From: Kordiimonadales bacterium IMCC3096
Lineage (GTDB): Bacteria; Pseudomonadota; Alphaproteobacteria; Minwuiales; Minwuiaceae
Reading direction: 5' to 3'
DNA: 64,000 bases
NCBI GenBank assembly: GCA_016865035.1
Contig: CP018227.1
Span: 2,137,501 to 2,201,500, forward strand
In this document: piece by piece, positions 28,522-39,923 of the stretch
Layout: the number at the start of each line of letters is the position of its first letter
Numbering within the stretch: position 1 is the first letter of the stretch
Position numbers and translations under genes: made by a program
Notes under the pieces: model-generated
The model's database searches: none
Seen by the model: the letters and a program-made list of their open reading frames with translations, nothing else
What the model was told of the DNA's origin: nothing

Positions 28522-29730
28522 TCAGGGCACGACGGGTTCGTGGGCCATGCCCAGATGCAGTTCAGTGCCGGTATAGGGGTTCGCGGCGATCACGGCGTCA
28601 TTCAGCGTGATGCCCAGTCCGGGACTGGTGGGCGGGATCAGGTAGCCGTCCTGCCAGGTGAAATCGGCGTCGACCATGGACATGTAGGGTCCGGTGAAGG
28701 TGCCGATGCTTTCCAGGATCAGGAAGTTCGGGCTGCAGGTTGCGATCTGGATGTTGGCCGCCGCCGTCACCGGCCCGCAGTAGAGGTGCGGTGCGATCTG
28801 GGCCTGGCGGGTCTCGGCCATGGCGGCGATCTTCTTCGCCTCCAGCAGACCCCCGACGCGGCTGAGGTTCATCTGCAGGACGGAGGCGGCACCGGCCTCC
28901 AGCAGCCGGGCGAATTCGTGCTTGGTGCACAGCCGTTCACCGGCAGCGACCGGGATCGAGGTGAAACGCGCGATCTCCGCCATGTCGGCGGGGTTCTCCG
29001 GCGTGGTCGGTTCCTCGAACCAGAGCGGGTCGTAGGGCTCCAGCCGCCGGGCCATGCGCTTTGCGCCCGAGACCGTGAACTGGCCATGGGTGCCGAACAG
29101 CAGGTCGGCCCGGGTGCCCACCGCCTCCCGGATGCGCTTGCAGAACATCTCGCTGCGCTCCAGATCCGCCAGCGTCGGCTGGTGGCCGTCATAGACGGTA
29201 TAGGGGCCCGCCGGATCGAACTTCACCGCGGTAAAGCCCTTTTCGACCATCGCCACCGCGACCTCCGCGGCCATGTCCGGGTCGTTGTAGACATTGGGCA
29301 CATCCGGGTCGGGATAGACATCGCCCTCCGGCGGATAGAGGTAGGTATAGCTGCGCAGGCGGTCATGCACCCTGCCGCCCAGCAGGTCGTGGACCGGCCT
29401 GTCCGCCGCCTTGCCGATGATGTCCCAGCAGGCCATCTCGAGACCGCTGAGCACGCCCATCACCGTCACGTCGGGGCGCTGGGTGAAGCCGGCGCCATAG
29501 GTGCGCCGCCAGAGCTTCTCGATTTGGTGCGGATCCTGTCCTTCGAACTGGCGCCCGAACACCTCCACGGCCATGGCGGCGCAGAGATCGGGGCCGAAGG
29601 TGGCGTTGTAGATCTCGCCGACCCCCGTGATCCCGCAGGCGGTGGTCAGGCGCAGGAAGATGAAGTAGCGACCGCCGTGACGGGGCGGCGGATTGCCGAC
29701 GACAAAGGTCTCGATCTTTTCCAGACGCAT
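28522..29730 (-). CDS. mandelate racemase/muconate lactonizing enzyme-family protein
   Basis: The 402-residue enolase-superfamily member has an N-terminal capping domain (to ~residue 125), then a TIM barrel with the lysine region FTAVKFDPAGPY, GTHGQFTVSGAKRM, the metal ligand Glu in PLWFEEPTTPEN and the later PVAAGERL. The GTHGQ and HLYCGP features resemble sugar acid dehydratases such as galactonate or mannonate dehydratase. It would abstract an alpha-proton from a carboxylate and eliminate water. The substrate is unknown. It sits between aldehyde dehydrogenase and GMC oxidoreductase genes. Confidence 0.85.
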   Translation of the reverse strand: MRLEKIETFVVGNPPPRHGGRYFIFLRLTTACGITGVGEIYNATFGPDLCAAMAVEVFGRQFEGQDPHQIEKLWRRTYGAGFTQRPDVTVMGVLSGLEMACWDIIGKAADRPVHDLLGGRVHDRLRSYTYLYPPEGDVYPDPDVPNVYNDPDMAAEVAVAMVEKGFTAVKFDPAGPYTVYDGHQPTLADLERSEMFCKRIREAVGTRADLLFGTHGQFTVSGAKRMARRLEPYDPLWFEEPTTPENPADMAEIARFTSIPVAAGERLCTKHEFARLLEAGAASVLQMNLSRVGGLLEAKKIAAMAETRQAQIAPHLYCGPVTAAANIQIATCSPNFLILESIGTFTGPYMSMVDADFTWQDGYLIPPTSPGLGITLNDAVIAANPYTGTELHLGMAHEPVVP

Positions 29731-29754: not shown

Positions 29755-31395
29755 TCAGGTGTGGTGCGCGGTGGTCTGCGCGTCCTCCAGGATCAGATCA
29801 GCGGCCCGCATGGCCAGCATCATCGTCGGCGCATTGATATTGCCCGATGTGATGTTGGGGAAGGATGAGGCATCGACGACACGCAGGCGCCCGATCCCGT
29901 GCACCCTCAGCCGTTCATCCAGGACCGAAGCGGCCGGGTCGTCCCCCATGCGGCAGGTGCAGCAGGGGTGGAAGACGGTCGCGGCACGGTCGCGAAAGTT
30001 CTCCAGCATCTCGGCGTCGGTCATGACCGATATGTCCGGCGGCTTCGGTGCACGCGTCACGCGCCTTATCGTCGGCGTTCCGGCCAGCAACCGCAACAGC
30101 CTGCCGGCCCGGACAGCCGCCGCGCGATCCGCTTCGGTCGACAGGGAGTTGGGCTGGATCAGCGGCGCTTCGCGCGGATCGGCGGAGGCAATCATGATCT
30201 CCCCGCGGCTGGTCGGACGACAGGGCTGAGCCGACAGGATGAACCCCGGATCGTGATCCATTCGTGGCGCGCCGCCGGGTTGGGTCGAATAGGATACCGG
30301 ATTGCAGAACACCTGCATGTCCGGGACCACGGCGGTCCCTTCCGACCGGATGAAGCCGCCCACCTGATTGACCGGCACACTCAATGGCCCCCTGCGGGTC
30401 AGCAGGTACTGCAGGCCGGCCCTGAACTGCCCGGACCGGCGGCTCAACAGGGTGTTCAGTGTCGGTTCGGTGGCGATGAAGTGATGGGTGATCGCCAGAT
30501 GGTCCTGCAGTCCCCGCCCCACCTGCGACAGGTCACTGACAACATCGATCCCGTGCGACCGCAGCAGTCCTGCCGGTCCGATGCCCGACAGTTGCAGCAG
30601 TTGCGGGGAATTGACGGCACCCGCACTGACGATGACCTCGCCCCTGGCGTGGGCGGTCATGGTCCGGTTCCCGAGGCTGTACTGCACGCCCGTGGCCTGC
30701 CCGTCCCGGATCAGCAGCCGCTCCACCAGCGCATGTTTCAGCACCCTCACATTGCCCCGCCTCAGCGCCGGGCGCAGGAAGGCATCCGCCGGGGAACAGC
30801 GGATGCCGTTGCGCACCGTGCTGCGGTATCGCGAGAGTCCTTCAGGCTGGTCGCCGTTCATGTCGTCGGTCAGCGGCCAGCCAAGCTCCTGCGCGGCTTC
30901 AAGGAACCGGGACGAGAACGGGTGCATCCGGGCGCTGAGATCGGATACGCGCAGCGGACCGGAGCCCCGGATTCGTGCCCTGCCATCGGGGCCGGTCTCG
31001 CTGTGGCTCACCAGCCGCTCGAAGACCGGTTGCGCGGTGCTCCAGTTCCACCCGGCGGCGCCCGCGCCCTCCCAGTCGTTGAAATCATGGGCCTGCCCGC
31101 ACACCCAGGCCATGGCATTGATCGACCCCGATCCGCCGATCACCCGACCGCGCGGCCAGTAGCCGACCCGTGCATTCAGCCCGGGGTCCGGTTCGGCGCT
31201 GTAGCGCCAGTTCACCCTGGGGTCGGAGAAGGTGAAGCCGTAACCCACCGGCACCTTGATCCAGAAGCGGGCGTCGGAACCGCCGGCCTCGATCACAAGG
31301 ACCGTGGTGCGACCGTTCCTGGTCAGGCAATCGGCCAGGACGCATCCGGCCGAGCCCGCGCCGACGATGATGTAGTCGAATTCCATATCAGACAT
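29755..31395 (-). CDS. GMC-family FAD-dependent oxidoreductase
   Basis: The 546-residue protein begins with the FAD site DYIIVGAGSAGCVLA and VIEAGGSD. It then shows GMC signature 1 (YWPRGRVIGGSGSINAMAWVCG), signature 2 (GAVNSPQLLQLSGIGP) and the C-terminal active-site region FHPCCTCRMG, then NITSGNINAPTMM. It is in the choline / alcohol dehydrogenase subgroup and oxidises an alcohol to the aldehyde with an acceptor other than NAD. The adjacent aldehyde dehydrogenase could use the product. ATG 31395 has weak spacing to its AAGGG; 31386 is an alternative start. Confidence 0.88.
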   Translation of the reverse strand: MSDMEFDYIIVGAGSAGCVLADCLTRNGRTTVLVIEAGGSDARFWIKVPVGYGFTFSDPRVNWRYSAEPDPGLNARVGYWPRGRVIGGSGSINAMAWVCGQAHDFNDWEGAGAAGWNWSTAQPVFERLVSHSETGPDGRARIRGSGPLRVSDLSARMHPFSSRFLEAAQELGWPLTDDMNGDQPEGLSRYRSTVRNGIRCSPADAFLRPALRRGNVRVLKHALVERLLIRDGQATGVQYSLGNRTMTAHARGEVIVSAGAVNSPQLLQLSGIGPAGLLRSHGIDVVSDLSQVGRGLQDHLAITHHFIATEPTLNTLLSRRSGQFRAGLQYLLTRRGPLSVPVNQVGGFIRSEGTAVVPDMQVFCNPVSYSTQPGGAPRMDHDPGFILSAQPCRPTSRGEIMIASADPREAPLIQPNSLSTEADRAAAVRAGRLLRLLAGTPTIRRVTRAPKPPDISVMTDAEMLENFRDRAATVFHPCCTCRMGDDPAASVLDERLRVHGIGRLRVVDASSFPNITSGNINAPTMMLAMRAADLILEDAQTTAHHT

Positions 31396-31498
31396 GCCCT
31401 TCGACCCTGATCCGCGGCCCGGTTCCTGACCCGCAAGCTACCGGTGATCCGCATCTCCGTGAACCATGATCACGACTGCAGATCGCTGTCCGTGCAGG

Positions 31499-31540
31499 TT
31501 GATCTGGATCAACGGGTATCGCGGGGGCTTGCCCTAGCAT
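31499..31540 (+). promoter_or_regulatory. FNR/FixK-type box and class II promoter
   Basis: TTGATCTGGATCAA (31499-31512) is a perfect match to the FNR/FixK/Anr consensus TTGAT-N4-ATCAA. TAGCAT at 31535-31540 matches a -10 at the position that puts the box centre at about -41.5 from a start near 31547, the class II activation geometry. The site lies about 120 bases before the Lon-family protease gene in the 237-bp divergent gap. Confidence 0.75.
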
Positions 31541-31632
31541 CGCAGAATGCCTGTCCGGTGGCTTCAGCCGGGCGGTGCCGGTATCCGGACGGGTTCTTCA
31601 TCCTTGCCGTCCGCTGATGATCGAGGTGAACC

Positions 31633-34074
31633 ATGCAGACCGATGACCTTGTGGTTTCCCCTGAACAGCTCCGTCAGGTGACGGAGCCGGCCAGTCTTGG
31701 ATTCTCGACAACGGCAGAGCTGTCCGATGTGGCCCAGAACATCACGCAGGAACGGGCGATCGAAGCGGTCAGCTTCGGCGTCGGCATCCCGTCCCAGGGC
31801 TATAATGTCTTCGTCATGGGTGGCCCCGGTCATGGTCGTCACCGGATCGTCTCCAGCATCCTGAAGCCGCTTGCGGCGGAACGGCCCACGCCGCCGGACT
31901 GGTGTTACGTCCACAACTTCCGGAATCCGCACAAGCCGCGCGCCATCAGGCTTCCCCCGGGCCGTGGCCTGCGTCTGAAGGAAGACATGGACACGCTGGT
32001 GAACGAGCTCAGCGCGGCCATTCCGGGCGCTTTCGAGGGGGATGACTATCAGGCGCGCCGCCGCGCGCTGGACGAGGCAATGCAGTCGAGGCAGCAGGAG
32101 CTGTTTGCCGCGATCCATGAGGATGCGGAGAAATCCGGCGTGGCGCTGATCCGCACACCCATGGGTTTCACCTTCGCGCCGGCGAAGGACGGCGAAGTGC
32201 TGACGCCTGAGGCGTTTCGCGGCCTGGATCAGGCGGAACAGGCGCGGTTCCAGTCGGAAATCGAGCGTCTGCAGGGCCTGCTGAAGAATATCGTCGTGCA
32301 GATTCCGGCGCTGGAGAAGGAGCACCGCGAGAAGGTCCGCGAGCTCGAGAGGGAAGTCACCCGCTTTGCCGTCGGCCATCTGACGGACGAGCTGGAGAAG
32401 GCCTACGCCGATCTGCCGGAGGTGGCTGCCCACATCAATGCGGTCGAGGCGGATGTCGTGGAGAATGCCGCCCAGTTCCTGCGTCCCGCCCCGTCACAGA
32501 ACGCGCCGGGTGAAGCGGAAGCCAGCCCGGAGGCGGCGCGCAGCGCGGTGCAGCGGCGATACCGCGCGAACCTGATCGTCAACAATGCCGAGTCCACCGG
32601 CGCGCCCATCGTCGCGGAAGGATTCCCGTCGCATGGCAATGTCTTTGGCCGGATCGAGCATATTGCCCAGTTCGGTGCGCTGGCCACCGACTTCAACCTC
32701 ATCCTCGGTGGCGCGCTGCATCGGGCCAACGGTGGCTATCTGGTGCTCGACGCCCGCCAGATCCTGACCCAGCCCTTTGCCTGGGATCAGCTGAAACGGG
32801 CGCTGCGTTCGCGGGAGATCCGGATCGAATCGATCGCGCAGTCGATGGGCATGATCTCCACGGTCACGCTGGACCCGGAACCGATTCCGCTGGAAACGAA
32901 GATCGTGCTGATCGGTGACCGGCAACTCTATTACCTGCTGTCGGTGCACGACCCCGAGTTCCCGGAGCTGTTCAAGATCGCGGCGGATATCGAGGATCAG
33001 GTTCCGCGCCAGCCGGAAACGGCTCTCCAGCTTGCCGCCATCATTTCCACGGCATCGCGCAACGAGGGGCTGCTGCCTCTCGACAGCGCTGCCGTCGCTG
33101 CAATCCTGGACCATGCCATTCGCAAGGCAGGGGACGCGGAGCGTTTCTCGACACAGGTTGGCGACCTGATCGATCTGGCGCGGGAGGCCAGTCATCTGGC
33201 TGCGGCCGGAGGGGCGTCCGTTGTGTCCGCCGACAGTGTGACCGCTGCTCTGGACGCCCGTATCCGTCGGGGCAGCCGGGTCCGCGACCTGATCTACGAG
33301 CGCATTGCGCAGGACGTCGTGCTGGTGGATGTCGCGGGCAGCGCCGTGGGGCAGGTCAACGGCCTGTCGGTTCTGCAGGCGGGGTCTCTCGCCTTCGGTC
33401 AGCCGAGCCGGATCACGGCGCGTGTGCGCACGGGCCGTGGCGGCGTCCTGGATATCGAACGGGAGGCGAAGCTTGGCGGTGCGCTGCACACGAAGGGCGT
33501 GATGATCCTGCAGGGCTTCGTTGCCCAGCACTATCTGCCCGACAGGCCGCTGACCCTCTCCGCCAGTCTGGTGTTCGAACAGTCCTACGGCGGGGTGGAC
33601 GGGGACAGCGCCTCCATGGCGGAACTCTGTGCGCTGCTGTCCGCCATCAGTGGTGTCCCGATCCGTCAGGATCTCGCGATGACCGGTTCGGTGAACCAGC
33701 ATGGTGTCTCCCAGGCCATCGGCGGCGTGAACGAGAAGATCGAGGGTTTCTTCGACATCTGCCGCGAAGGTGGGCTGTCCGGCAGCCAGGGCGTGATCAT
33801 TCCGCGGTCGAATGTCAGGCATCTGATGTTGCGGGAGGATGTGGTCGCGGCGGCACGGGAAGGGACATTCCGGATACATGCGGTCAGCAACGTCGATGAG
33901 GCGCTGTCGCTGTTGACCGGCATGGCAACAGGCCCGCGCGGGGCGGACGGCAGCTTTGCCGAGGGCACCATTCATCGCCTGGTCGAGGACAGGCTGACGG
34001 CCTTCGCGAAGGCGTCGAAGGCGGCATCGTCGGACGCGGGTCGTGATCCCGACCCGCCGGAGGGGGCGGGATGA
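31633..34074 (+). CDS. Lon-family (AAA_32/S16) ATP-dependent protease
   Basis: The 813-residue protein has a degenerate nucleotide loop GGPGHGRH (residues 63-70, Arg where Lys is usual, as in this family), a long coiled-coil insert (~190-290) and a second AAA region (ILGGALHRANGGYLVLDAR). The Lon peptidase domain has catalytic Ser659 in DGDSAS and Lys702 in GGVNEKIEGF, 43 residues apart as in Lon. It resembles the LonB/LonC-like 'AAA_32' proteases rather than housekeeping Lon. The FNR-type promoter and the following universal stress gene (ATGA overlap) suggest protein quality control under low oxygen. Confidence 0.85.
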   Translation: MQTDDLVVSPEQLRQVTEPASLGFSTTAELSDVAQNITQERAIEAVSFGVGIPSQGYNVFVMGGPGHGRHRIVSSILKPLAAERPTPPDWCYVHNFRNPHKPRAIRLPPGRGLRLKEDMDTLVNELSAAIPGAFEGDDYQARRRALDEAMQSRQQELFAAIHEDAEKSGVALIRTPMGFTFAPAKDGEVLTPEAFRGLDQAEQARFQSEIERLQGLLKNIVVQIPALEKEHREKVRELEREVTRFAVGHLTDELEKAYADLPEVAAHINAVEADVVENAAQFLRPAPSQNAPGEAEASPEAARSAVQRRYRANLIVNNAESTGAPIVAEGFPSHGNVFGRIEHIAQFGALATDFNLILGGALHRANGGYLVLDARQILTQPFAWDQLKRALRSREIRIESIAQSMGMISTVTLDPEPIPLETKIVLIGDRQLYYLLSVHDPEFPELFKIAADIEDQVPRQPETALQLAAIISTASRNEGLLPLDSAAVAAILDHAIRKAGDAERFSTQVGDLIDLAREASHLAAAGGASVVSADSVTAALDARIRRGSRVRDLIYERIAQDVVLVDVAGSAVGQVNGLSVLQAGSLAFGQPSRITARVRTGRGGVLDIEREAKLGGALHTKGVMILQGFVAQHYLPDRPLTLSASLVFEQSYGGVDGDSASMAELCALLSAISGVPIRQDLAMTGSVNQHGVSQAIGGVNEKIEGFFDICREGGLSGSQGVIIPRSNVRHLMLREDVVAAAREGTFRIHAVSNVDEALSLLTGMATGPRGADGSFAEGTIHRLVEDRLTAFAKASKAASSDAGRDPDPPEGAG

Positions 34075-34874
34075 CGGCAGGCTTCGCGATCCGCCGGATG
34101 CTCTTGGCCCTGGACCTCTCCCCGGCAGCGCGTTCCATGCTGCCCGAGGCCCTGCGGCTGGCAAACCGGCTGAATGCCGAGGCGGAAGGTCTGTTTGTCG
34201 AGGACTCCCGCATGGTGAATGTCCTGGCGGGGGAGGGGCTGCCCGCGCGGCACGTGAGCACGGTGACGGGACTTTCCGAGACGCTGGACGCCCGGGCGAT
34301 GGATGCCGCCTTGCGGGCGCAGTCGGCGCTGCTCGCGCGCCACGTATCGGCCACTGCGGCGGCGCTCCGGTGTCATTGCGAGCTGCGGACGGTGCGCGGA
34401 ATCGTGGCTGAGACGCTTGTATCGCAGGCGGATCAGGATGACCTGCTGGTGCTGTCGCGCCGTCCCGGACATGTGGGGGCGACGCTTGCCGCGACCATCC
34501 GCCGGATGTCCGCCCCCGTCCTGGTGCTGCCGCCGGGCGAGAGCGTCGGGCAGGGGCGCATCGTCGTGGTCGCCGACAGTGCCGGATTTCTTGCCCGTGG
34601 TCTGGCCGCCGCCCGGTGGTTCAAGGGGGACAGTGACCGCGTGGTGGAGGTCCTTTCCGGTGCGGCCGTCACACCCGCCGAAGCCGAGAGCCAGTTGCGG
34701 TCGTTTGATCTTCCTGCCCGGATTACCGCCGCCGTCCAGACAGCGGACCTCATCCAGCAGATCCGCTCGGATGCCGGGCTTGTCATCGTCTCGCCGCAGA
34801 ACGGGGCACTGGCCGGGCCGAACCTGGCTGCATTCCTCGCGTCGGCACACATGCCTGTTCTGCTGATGCGATAG
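34071..34874 (+). CDS. universal stress protein family protein
   Basis: The 267-residue protein has an N-terminal UspA-like fold: RRMLLALDLSPAARSMLPEALRLA, then DDLLVLSRRPGHVGATLAATIRRMSAPVLVLPPG. The last part is the position where ATP-binding Usp proteins carry G-2x-G-9x-G(S/T). A second, more divergent half continues (RIVVVADSAGFLARGLAAAR). Start 34071 overlaps the protease stop as ATGA, so synthesis is coupled. It probably belongs to the FNR/FixK-controlled unit. Confidence 0.75.
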   Translation: MTAGFAIRRMLLALDLSPAARSMLPEALRLANRLNAEAEGLFVEDSRMVNVLAGEGLPARHVSTVTGLSETLDARAMDAALRAQSALLARHVSATAAALRCHCELRTVRGIVAETLVSQADQDDLLVLSRRPGHVGATLAATIRRMSAPVLVLPPGESVGQGRIVVVADSAGFLARGLAAARWFKGDSDRVVEVLSGAAVTPAEAESQLRSFDLPARITAAVQTADLIQQIRSDAGLVIVSPQNGALAGPNLAAFLASAHMPVLLMR

Positions 34875-34938
34875 CGCCATCCGCTGCCCGATTGCTGCGT
34901 CTCTCCGTTTCTCCCCGGTTCCCTGAAAGGACGCCACC

Positions 34939-36126
34939 ATGGCCCTTCATCGCCGCGTCGGACTGAGCCTGCTGATCCTCTACGGCGTCGGCGTCATGGT
35001 CGGCGCCGGAATCTATGTGCTGGTGGGCAAGGTCGCGGGCGTGGCGGGCGCGCTGACCCCGCTTTCTTTCGTTGTCGCGGGCGTGGCAGCGGCGCTCTCG
35101 GCGCTTTCTTTTGCCGAGCTTTCGGCCCGGATACCGGAAAGCGCGGGGGAGGCCGCCTATGTCCGCACCGCCTTCGGTATCGGGTGGTTCGGTGACTGTG
35201 TCGGTGTGGCGGTTGCCTGTGTCGGCGTGATCTCGGCGGCAGCGATCCTGAAGGGTGGGGTTGGCTATCTTGCCGCGCTTGTCGACTTGCCGAGATTCTG
35301 GCTCGAGATCCTTGTCGGCCTCTTGCTGGGCTGCATCGCCCTTGTCGGCGTGCTGGAGTCCCTGGTGTTTGCCGCGATTCTCACCCTCATCGAGATTGTC
35401 GGCCTGCTGCTGATCGTCGGGGCGGGTTTCAGTGCCGAACCGGTGACACCCCTGGCAGACATGGTGGACCTGGGTTCCCTGCTGCACGGCGGCGGTCCGA
35501 TGCTGCTCGCCGCGGCACTGCTGGCCTTCTTCGCCTTCATCGGTTTCGAGGACATGGTCAACCTGGCGGAGGAAACCATCGACCCTGTCCGGACCATGCC
35601 GCGCGGCATCGTCGGCGCGATCATGATCACCACCCTGCTCTACGTGCTTGTCGCGGTCGCTGCGATCCGGGCCGTCGACATGCAGCAACTGGCGCAGAGC
35701 GAACGCCCGCTGGCCCTGGTGTTCGAGAAGGGAACAGGCTGGTCACCGGACACGATCATCGTGATCGCGATCTTCGCCACACTGAACGGCGTGCTGGCCC
35801 AGATCGTCATGGCCGCCCGCGTGCTGTATGGCCTGGGCCGCCGGAACCGCCTGTTCACCTGGGCCCATGCCACCAGTGACCGGCTGGGAACACCTGTCGC
35901 GGCGACCGTCGCCGTGACCCTGATCGTTGTCGTCCTGGCATTGAGTGCCCCCATCGAGAAACTGGCCCAGGTAACGACCTACATCCTGCTGTGCATCTTT
36001 ATCGTCGTGAACCTCGCCCTGCTTGCGCTGAAGCGGCGCGTGCCGACGCCTGCGGGCGCGCCCGATGTCCACCGGACTGTGCCGATGATCGCCATCCTGC
36101 TCTCGCTGGTCCTGCTGTTCGCGTGA
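34939..36126 (+). CDS. APC-superfamily amino acid permease
   Basis: The 395-residue inner-membrane protein has about eleven hydrophobic helices. The APC motif at the start reads LLILYGVGVMVGAGIYVLVG (unwound TM1 with GAG). Later come FAELSARIPESAGEAAYVRTAF and FFAFIGFEDMVNLAEET (TM6-like region). Its substrate is likely an amino acid or amine. It follows the stress protein by 64 bases in the same direction, with AAGGA before the ATG, and may share the anaerobic promoter. Confidence 0.85.
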   Translation: MALHRRVGLSLLILYGVGVMVGAGIYVLVGKVAGVAGALTPLSFVVAGVAAALSALSFAELSARIPESAGEAAYVRTAFGIGWFGDCVGVAVACVGVISAAAILKGGVGYLAALVDLPRFWLEILVGLLLGCIALVGVLESLVFAAILTLIEIVGLLLIVGAGFSAEPVTPLADMVDLGSLLHGGGPMLLAAALLAFFAFIGFEDMVNLAEETIDPVRTMPRGIVGAIMITTLLYVLVAVAAIRAVDMQQLAQSERPLALVFEKGTGWSPDTIIVIAIFATLNGVLAQIVMAARVLYGLGRRNRLFTWAHATSDRLGTPVAATVAVTLIVVVLALSAPIEKLAQVTTYILLCIFIVVNLALLALKRRVPTPAGAPDVHRTVPMIAILLSLVLLFA

Positions 36127-36228
36127 TCGACTGTCCCGTGGTCCTGACGGAAAGTGGTATTCTGCAGGATGGTTTTGTTCAATAAGGTGTCGGAAACGAC
36201 GGCAATGCATCCTGCGGAAGAGGTCACG

Positions 36229-36744
36229 ATGGCGGTCAGAGAACCCACCGACGAACCGGCAGCTTCATCGGGGCCTTCGGCGCAGTCACCGCAGTTCCGG
36301 ATCGGGTTTCTGGTGCATGACGTTTCCCGCATGCGGCGGACGCTGTTCGATCAGGAGATGAAGCCGCTTGGCATCACCCGTTCCCAGTGGTGGGTGCTGG
36401 CGCAACTGTCGCGCAGTCTCGGCACCGAGGGGGCTGAGGCCGGGATGCCCCAGACGAAGCTGGCGCGCATCCTGGACATGGGCAAGGCGCCGATGACCGG
36501 GCTGATCGACCGGCTGGAGGCCAGCGGCTTTGTCGAACGCCGCCCCGACAGCCGTGACCGCCGCGCGAAACGGATCGTCGTCACGGCACGGGGGCAGGGC
36601 GTGCTGGACCAGATGGCGACGGTCGGTCACCGCCTGAACCACACGGTCCTGGACGGCCTGTCGGACGAGGACATCGCCACCGCCGAGAGGGTGCTGGGCC
36701 GGATGAAGGACAATATCCGGGGCATTCTCGACGGCGACGACTGA
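36229..36744 (+). CDS. MarR-family transcriptional regulator
   Basis: The 171-residue protein has a winged helix: RSQWWVLAQLSRS, TKLARILDMGKAPMTGLIDRLEASGFVERRPDSRDRRAKRI (recognition helix and wing with the conserved DxRxR) and a C-terminal dimerisation helix. It probably responds to an aromatic or fatty-acid-like ligand and controls the convergent SDR or nearby catabolic genes. Start 36229 has AGAGG six bases upstream; 36205 and 36169 are other in-frame ATGs. Confidence 0.85.
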   Translation: MAVREPTDEPAASSGPSAQSPQFRIGFLVHDVSRMRRTLFDQEMKPLGITRSQWWVLAQLSRSLGTEGAEAGMPQTKLARILDMGKAPMTGLIDRLEASGFVERRPDSRDRRAKRIVVTARGQGVLDQMATVGHRLNHTVLDGLSDEDIATAERVLGRMKDNIRGILDGDD

Positions 36745-38834: not shown

Positions 38835-39923
38835 CTATGCGACCCGATATTTCGCCAGCACGTCCGGGTCGGGCTCGAAGCCGATGCCGGGGCGGTCGGG
38901 AACAGTGATGCTGCCATCGACCGGCGTCGGGATGGTCGGGTCGATGAAGGCTTCGGGCTGGATCCAGAAGAATTCGAACAGTTCCGCGTTCGGTTTCGCT
39001 GCCATGACCTGCAGGGTGGCCCAGTACCCCGGCCCGAAATAGGGCGAATGCGGCATGACGCGCTTGCCCGCCTCGGCTGCCGCATCGCAGATCGCCACGG
39101 CCTCCGACACGCCGCCGACCTTGGTGACAGACGGCTGGACGAAGTCGAGCTTCGGGATGGTGCGGCGGAATTCGGTCAGGGTGCAGGCGTTCTCGCCGCT
39201 GGCGATGGAGACGCCATACTGATCCTGCAGTGCGCCCAGGGTCTCCGCATCGTCAGGCGGAAACACCGGCTCCTCGACCCAGTAGAGGCCGAGGCGCTGC
39301 ATCTCCGGCATCATCCGGTGCGCTTCCTCCAGCGACCAGTTGCAGTTCACGTCGGTGGTGACACGAACCCCGCTGCCCGCCGCCGCGACACCGGCTTCGA
39401 TGCAGTCCAGCGCGATCTCGTGCAGTTTCACGGTCCGGAACCCCCGCGCGACCACATCCGCCGTGAATTCCGCCACCTGTCCGGGATTGCCGTAGCGTAC
39501 CAGGCTGGCATAGGCCGGGATCGACGGGCGCGGGCTGTCCGACAGCAGGTGGGCCAGCGACACCCCTTGCTGCTTCGCCGCGATGTCCCACAGCGCGGTA
39601 TCGACCGCGGATATGGCAAAGATGGTGATGCCATAGCGGCCATGCAGGTGCAGCCGCTTCTGAAGCAGGTGGTTGAAGGCCGGAATGTCATCGATTTCCG
39701 CGCCCACGACATGCGGCAGTACCATGTCCTGCAATGCGGCGATGGTGGCCCCGACGCAATGGTAGGCGAAGCCGTCGCCCCAGCCGACGGTGCCATCCTC
39801 GGTCGTGAGTTTCAGCAGGGCGACATCCAGATGCGTCCATTGCTGCGGCATCAGGCCGACCCCGGAACTGCCATCGGTGAAGGGGATCGACAGGCGGATG
39901 ATCTCGGCGGAACGGATCTTCAT
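38835..39923 (-). CDS. mandelate racemase/muconate lactonizing enzyme-family protein
   Basis: The 362-residue enolase-superfamily enzyme has a capping domain with PFTDGSSGVGLMP, the barrel lysine region FRTVKLHEIAL, metal ligands in TTDVNCNW and YWVEEPVFPPDD, then SIASGENACT, and a late HSPYFGPGYW. It acts by alpha-proton abstraction from a carboxylate; whether the reaction is racemisation, dehydration or cycloisomerisation is not clear. It is unlike the paralogue at 28522 in its KLHE motif. It sits 35 bases after the carboxymuconolactone decarboxylase-like gene on the same strand. Confidence 0.85.
   Translation of the reverse strand: MKIRSAEIIRLSIPFTDGSSGVGLMPQQWTHLDVALLKLTTEDGTVGWGDGFAYHCVGATIAALQDMVLPHVVGAEIDDIPAFNHLLQKRLHLHGRYGITIFAISAVDTALWDIAAKQQGVSLAHLLSDSPRPSIPAYASLVRYGNPGQVAEFTADVVARGFRTVKLHEIALDCIEAGVAAAGSGVRVTTDVNCNWSLEEAHRMMPEMQRLGLYWVEEPVFPPDDAETLGALQDQYGVSIASGENACTLTEFRRTIPKLDFVQPSVTKVGGVSEAVAICDAAAEAGKRVMPHSPYFGPGYWATLQVMAAKPNAELFEFFWIQPEAFIDPTIPTPVDGSITVPDRPGIGFEPDPDVLAKYRVA

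Follow-up and report, generated by a model that had tools for sequence, protein, structure and literature searches.

A predicted class II FNR-type promoter ahead of genes for a LonC-like protease, a universal-stress-protein-fold partner and an amino acid permease in Kordiimonadales bacterium IMCC3096

The stretch of 64,000 nt from Kordiimonadales bacterium IMCC3096 analysed here (contig CP018227.1, forward-strand positions 2,137,501 to 2,201,500; hereafter the window, in whose numbering positions are given) contains three plus-strand genes behind a perfect FNR-type box: those of a LonC-like protease, a partner with the fold of universal stress proteins (USPs) and an APC-family amino acid permease. 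Box, spacing and gene order, all read from the sequence, support a class II FNR-type promoter over this unit, which is probably a new FNR-type operon carrying little-studied genes. We think it likely that an FnrL-like regulator activates the three genes as a unit, in the class II manner, when oxygen is low, and that the operon would thereby serve a form of proteolysis that spares ATP. The features concerned are:

31499..31512, plus strand: FNR-type palindrome TTGATCTGGATCAA, read from the sequence and lying inside the longest invariant block of the alignment with congeners
31535..31540, plus strand: predicted -10 element TAGCAT, 22 nt past the end of the box, a spacing with support over orthologues
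31547, plus strand: predicted transcription start, placed by geometry
31623..31628, plus strand: ribosome-binding site GAGGTG, read from the sequence and retained in two congeners
31633..34074, plus strand: gene 1 (lonC), LonC-like protease of 813 aa with the domains AAA_32, LonC_helical, LonB_AAA-LID and Lon_C and the dyad S659/K702
34071..34874, plus strand: gene 2, diverged tandem USP-fold partner of 267 aa, recognised by profile, predicted fold and neighbour conservation
34939..36126, plus strand: gene 3, APC-family amino acid permease of 395 aa (Pfam AA_permease_2), its position kept in congeners
29755-31395, minus strand: GMC oxidoreductase gene, divergent from lonC and sharing with it the intergenic region that holds the box

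An earlier note on this DNA had described a perfect box 41.5 bases before a predicted start, followed by three same-strand genes, two of them overlapping by ATGA, and had named the last a permease. These particulars are borne out: the centre of the box (31505.5) falls at -41.5 from the predicted start, genes 1 and 2 share ATGA at 34071-34074, and a gap of 64 nt separates genes 2 and 3. The box has the exact form TTGATN4ATCAA, which occurs once in the window and on average 0.01 times over 100 dinucleotide shuffles; together with the distance of about 22 nt to the -10 element it has two of the marks of a class II FNR promoter. From the predicted start to the ATG at 31633 the leader would measure 86 nt. 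An ordinary sigma-70 promoter was dropped as a candidate, because a scan of 31380-36300 found none (0, compared with 0.7 in shuffles), a lack that fits expectation if an activator stands in for the -35 element.

Relatives within the genus support this promoter. Two congeners possess an orthologue of the protease with 84% identity, two others hold a relative with 49%, and two further genomes match weakly and within the Lon protease domain only, as an ordinary Lon would. In the intergenic alignment of the window with the two close congeners, where mean column identity is 67%, the longest invariant run is a block of 15 nt, GTTGATCTGGATCAA, that includes the box; the region of GAGGTG and the start is retained as well, and the other invariant columns are scattered. 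The congener -10 element reads TATCAT and lies 21 nt past the box. Gene order is identical in both congeners, with the APC permease next in the unit as in the window.

Beyond the genus we compared 186 LonC loci, of which 106 were taken from the class to which the window belongs (100 of 141 matches, among them 60 picked by hand, 40 of these nearer and 20 more remote, plus 6 others) and 80 are named loci, the best 80 of at least 587 matches; titles of metagenome-assembled genomes among the latter may be mis-binned. Usable were 183 loci upstream, 178 downstream and 175 on both sides, with 173 proteins for motif counts, and the window locus (L017) and the two congeners are included in the counts. 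A box matching at 9/10 or better is found within the 300 nt upstream of 23 of the 183 orthologues and is perfect in 6, compared with 0-3 and none, respectively, for 19 half-site permutations. Combined with a TAnnnT site at 21-23 nt, the best box per locus at 8/10 or better occurs in 11/183 upstream regions (permuted boxes: 0-3); an initial set of 120 loci, scored for any box of this kind with a TAnnnT site, likewise gave 11 (permuted: 0-1), distributed as 3, 6 and 2 at 21, 22 and 23 nt with the peak at 22. Positions matching at 9/10 or better number 24 in 56,297 upstream, 19 in 443,280 in lonC coding sequence and 53 in 1,083,638 elsewhere in the loci, that is 42.6, 4.3 and 4.9 per 100 kb, or an enrichment of about 9-10 times upstream. 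The class sample supplies 15 of the 23 boxed loci, the window and its two congeners included. The other 8 are named loci, whose titles include alpha-, beta- and gammaproteobacteria (L115, L110, L140). A FastTree tree of 173 sequences requires at least 17 changes in the state of the box, which fits repeated gain or loss. Both the class II promoter and the three-gene unit of the earlier note are supported by the congener footprint, the enrichment upstream of orthologues and the shared congener gene order. The conservation to which that note had looked takes the form of an enrichment, and, with a box of 9/10 or better in only 23 of 183 upstream regions, oxygen control would not be general to the family.

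The other boxes of the genome, a single contig of 4,291,441 bases (4.29 Mb), point to the nature of the regulon. Perfect boxes number 5, compared with about 0.44 expected for independent, identically distributed bases at the composition of the window, and none for the reversed pattern; the degenerate form TTGAYN4RTCAA occurs 11 times and its reversed control once. The four perfect boxes outside the window lie upstream of a USP gene (L001, 1501-1514), between sdhC and a coaBC-type gene (L002), upstream of ppk2, the gene of a PPK2 polyphosphate kinase, between it and a glyoxalase-family gene (L004, 1501-1514), and between a hemerythrin-domain gene and ccoN (L005, 1501-1514; G000:C1:3348866-3348879). 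Identities of ccoN (NCBIfam TIGR00780, 725 bits) and sdhC (TIGR02970) are over the cut-offs, and the hemerythrin gene may be a further target of the oxygen switch. The FnrL targets listed for Rhodobacter capsulatus include box-bearing genes of these types: ccoN, sdhC, the gene of a UspA protein and that of polyphosphate kinase 2 (PMC4634722). Given the excess of perfect boxes over expectation and the position of the others beside gene types that are FnrL targets, we judge the box to be non-random.

The gene of an FnrL-like protein adjoins the hemerythrin gene at L005, near ccoN, and in many alphaproteobacteria fnr neighbours cbb3 genes (PMC2908626). This protein, found with at least 250 bits in 7/7 genomes of the genus examined, its own included, carries the motif CDIC-x7-C near its N terminus as well as the helix ETVSRQIGR. 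In the mechanism that we favour, it would, as an iron-sulphur (Fe-S) regulator, bind the box at 31499-31512, at -41.5, when oxygen is scarce, and would activate RNA polymerase at the TAGCAT element in the manner of class II FNR promoters, by which all three genes of the unit would be transcribed together. At such times of low respiration and low ATP, LonC would degrade unfolded or damaged proteins at no ATP cost, and the permease would move amino acids. The USP-fold protein, made along with them, would probably regulate LonC, the permease or both, sensing energy state or a ligand. The link to oxygen is drawn from the box, its spacing, the company of the regulon and conservation, and that to the sparing of ATP from homology.

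Gene 1 is LonC-like by its Pfam domains, its best PDB match and its motifs. The match is to a set headed by 4fwd (E 2.5e-94; entry: TTC1975 peptidase / endopeptidase La), which we take to be MtaLonC. A Ser-Lys catalytic dyad (S659/K702) is followed by the insertion CX3GLX(G/E) in the form CREGGLSG at 710-717, and S659, K702 and C710 are kept in 173/173 LonC sequences; this insertion after the catalytic Lys is as given for LonC in PMC3391209, and the TTC1975/MtaLonC subfamily is S16.007 in MEROPS (PMC9569914). The Walker motifs are non-canonical, with GGPGHGRHR as A and GGYLVLDA as B. MtaLonC, in which GPPSLGKHE and GYLILDA stand in these places, binds nucleotide and has no ATPase activity (PMC3391209). 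The two proteins have in common the dyad, the insertion and a Walker B-like GYL.LDA with Leu before the Asp, whereas they are remote relatives and differ in Walker A. Because the Walker motifs are degenerate and MtaLonC with like motifs lacks ATPase activity, the LonC of the window is probably ATP-independent. The oxygen-controlled proteolysis suggested in the earlier note would thus probably be ATP-independent, and an ATP-dependent reading of its term Lon-like is rejected in view of these motifs and of MtaLonC. A predicted LonC model of moderate quality (pLDDT 79.1, pTM 0.53) was left unused.

The product of the second gene, called a stress protein in the earlier note, is predicted with high confidence to have a USP fold, and we speak of it as such, short of calling it a certified USP. 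An AF2 model with pLDDT 91.8 has a tandem USP fold, for which the best match is TTHA0350 (PDB 3ab7/3ab8; for 3ab8, Z 20.9, root-mean-square deviation 3.2, 243 aligned residues, 26% identity), followed by 3loq (Z 20.3) and 3cis (Z 19.6), and TTHA0350 also matches gene 2 by profile (E 3.1e-22). A Pfam scan of gene 2 at 0.001 gave no match; directly against Pfam Usp (PF00582) it reaches 15.7 bits, under the gathering cut-off of 24, which 5/8 scanned relatives of the partner family do pass. The strict ATP motif G-2x-G-9x-G(S/T), which not all USPs possess, is absent from the window partner and present in 9/99 partners. In TTHA0350, the nearest match, which is likewise a tandem USP fold, the N-terminal domain by contrast keeps the ATP motif and binds ATP (PMC3673472).

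The pairing of the two genes extends well beyond the genus. Our gene calling missed the window partner, calling the opposite strand instead, and it was recovered by a profile from 30 neighbours (123.8 bits, E 4.1e-40 for the single sequence). A partner lies directly 3' of lonC in 97/178 scorable loci (58/104 in the class sample, 39/74 in the named one). By identity to the window protein, LonC relatives at 36-41% have it in 1/23 cases and those at 30-36% in 0/4; the distant LonC group at 36-41% is thus nearly always without a USP-fold partner. All 23 boxed loci have a partner, compared with 72/152 unboxed ones (Fisher 2.8e-7), but this difference is not significant when relatedness is allowed for, as set out below.

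Permease relatives (46-49% identity) stand on the same strand 3' of lonC and its partner in four other loci (L060, L067, L174, L180); by orientations derived from coordinates, such a relative is divergent from lonC in L148 (5612-6790, minus strand) and L166 (4161-4880, plus strand), and one of 39% identity is convergent in L061. L148 has a 9/10 FNR box between permease and lonC. The permease is not general to lonC loci, since L148 is the only match among the 80 named ones. The partner model also matches the C-terminal domains of the KCC/NKCC cation-chloride cotransporters (Z 11-14), which belong to the APC superfamily, and the gene that follows in the window likewise encodes an APC permease; this suggests, by analogy, that the USP-fold part may act on the permease. 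Unlike in the cotransporters, the partner is a separate gene, identity is low and the permease occurs in some loci only, so that the likeness is one of analogy and carries no claim of family.

Several observations weigh against low-oxygen control of the operon by an FnrL-like activator. The box falls short of 9/10 in 160/183 orthologue upstream regions, so that control by it is improbable for the majority of the lonC genes examined; some of the 9/10 matches will be chance, as permuted motifs give up to 3, possibly including that of the one boxed locus titled Chlorobiaceae (L095). The spacing counts have a small secondary value at 18 nt (3/120 loci). The link between box and partner loses significance once relatedness is counted (independent pairs on the FastTree tree, median p 0.5 and 0.25), for which reason the association was dropped as a claim; the test never pointed in the opposite direction. 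On the side of the regulator, the best NCBIfam match of the FnrL-like protein is FnrL with 266.5 bits, under the equivalog cut-off of 300, and of the six genomes compared in which lonC has a box (own included), one, G052 (L020), gave no match to an FnrL-type protein at E 1e-30. At some of its sites FnrL acts as a repressor, and it is the spacing alone that predicts activation here. As to the protease, R69 of the window LonC occupies the position of the Walker A Lys of MtaLonC, and the LonC relatives measured in the literature covered are thermophile enzymes.

A different reader of the box offers the most serious alternative, though a rather improbable one: the site would be functional, and another CRP/FNR protein would bind it, with a signal other than oxygen sensed through an Fe-S cluster. 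A candidate is L007 (G000:C1, about 358.7 kb), a CRP/FNR-type protein of 220 aa with the FNR-like reading helix REVVSRQ, E..SR residues in this helix being typical of FNR readers. Five stretches of the genome exceed the cut-off for PF13545, among them the FnrL-like protein, L007 and L008, as well as L010, a GntR-family protein. Against this stand the position of the FnrL-like gene, near ccoN and hemerythrin genes with a perfect box, and the agreement of the perfect-box genes with known types of FnrL target, while no family model matches L007 itself closely (best 55.1 bits, cut-off 274).

Alternatively, the site might serve the divergent GMC gene, or repress, with lonC a mere neighbour. The box does sit in the intergenic region common to both genes, and the identical 14-mer occurs at an FnrL-bound site of a repressed gene, coxI, in Rhodobacter sphaeroides (PMC2908626). 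We consider this quite unlikely and reject control of the GMC gene: a TAnnnT site at 21-23 nt is found once on the plus side, at 22 nt, and not at all on the minus side, and both congeners retain the box while their loci (L216, L217) show no GMC match. That the palindrome is a functionless product of chance is hardly credible, for boxes with at most one mismatch are indeed expected 0.66 times per window, but the exact box only 0.01 times, and the genome-wide count, shuffles, permuted motifs, density comparison and retention in diverged congener DNA all speak against it.

A MarR gene at 36154-36744 was considered as a fourth member of the operon and rejected, there being no match in the searched loci; most loci end short of that position, and the congener loci L216 and L217 reach far enough. 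Two enolase-superfamily (MR_MLE) genes lie on either side (28522-29730 and 38835-39923, both minus strand), and genes for an aldehyde dehydrogenase, a hydroxyisobutyrate-dehydrogenase-like protein, an SDR, an alpha/beta hydrolase and a CMD-family protein are also nearby. The surroundings look like a catabolic neighbourhood without relation to the operon.

Why such an operon would matter is readily stated: proteolysis by AAA+ enzymes costs ATP, and loss of oxygen lowers ATP. If an oxygen switch governs a Lon relative whose ATPase motifs are degenerate, this would point to a way in which respiring bacteria sustain protein turnover in that state. The operon would also place LonC, described in the literature covered from thermophile enzymes, in a physiological context. 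The conserved gene pair also provides a testable partner for a USP-fold protein, of a family with mostly unknown functions. A bolder reading, which we regard as doubtful, is that LonC and the USP-fold protein may be the two parts of one conserved machine, the protease being ATP-independent and gated by its USP partner according to energy state, that several lineages separately placed it under FNR control, and that in some alphaproteobacteria the USP part docks on an APC permease as the split counterpart of the cotransporters; if true, protein turnover would go on without ATP when oxygen runs out.

FNR class II promoters as such are known, and so are LonC and tandem USPs. Among the matches listed in our literature search, which covered the main texts of papers outside subscription, none reports a LonC operon under FNR-type control or a pairing of LonC and USP genes. 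The word protease is absent from the main texts of PMC2908626, PMC4999443, PMC5398030, PMC7713065 and PMC8510549, occurs in the methods text only of PMC5934665, and refers in PMC4634722 to one putative membrane protease; PMC2908626 does mention peptidases U32 and U62. Among proteins raised under micro-oxia, ClpA, ClpB and FtsH are named and LonC is not in the passages covered of PMC3759415, and lon is among raised protease genes under a condition that is not clear from PMC8269255. Among the known systems close to ours is the FnrL regulon of Rhodobacter (PMC4634722, PMC2908626). It differs in that the passages covered name no Lon-type protease among FNR-type targets, and it agrees in the box TTGATN4ATCAA and in its targets ccoN, USP, sdhC and ppk2, the gene types that accompany the other perfect boxes of the IMCC3096 genome.

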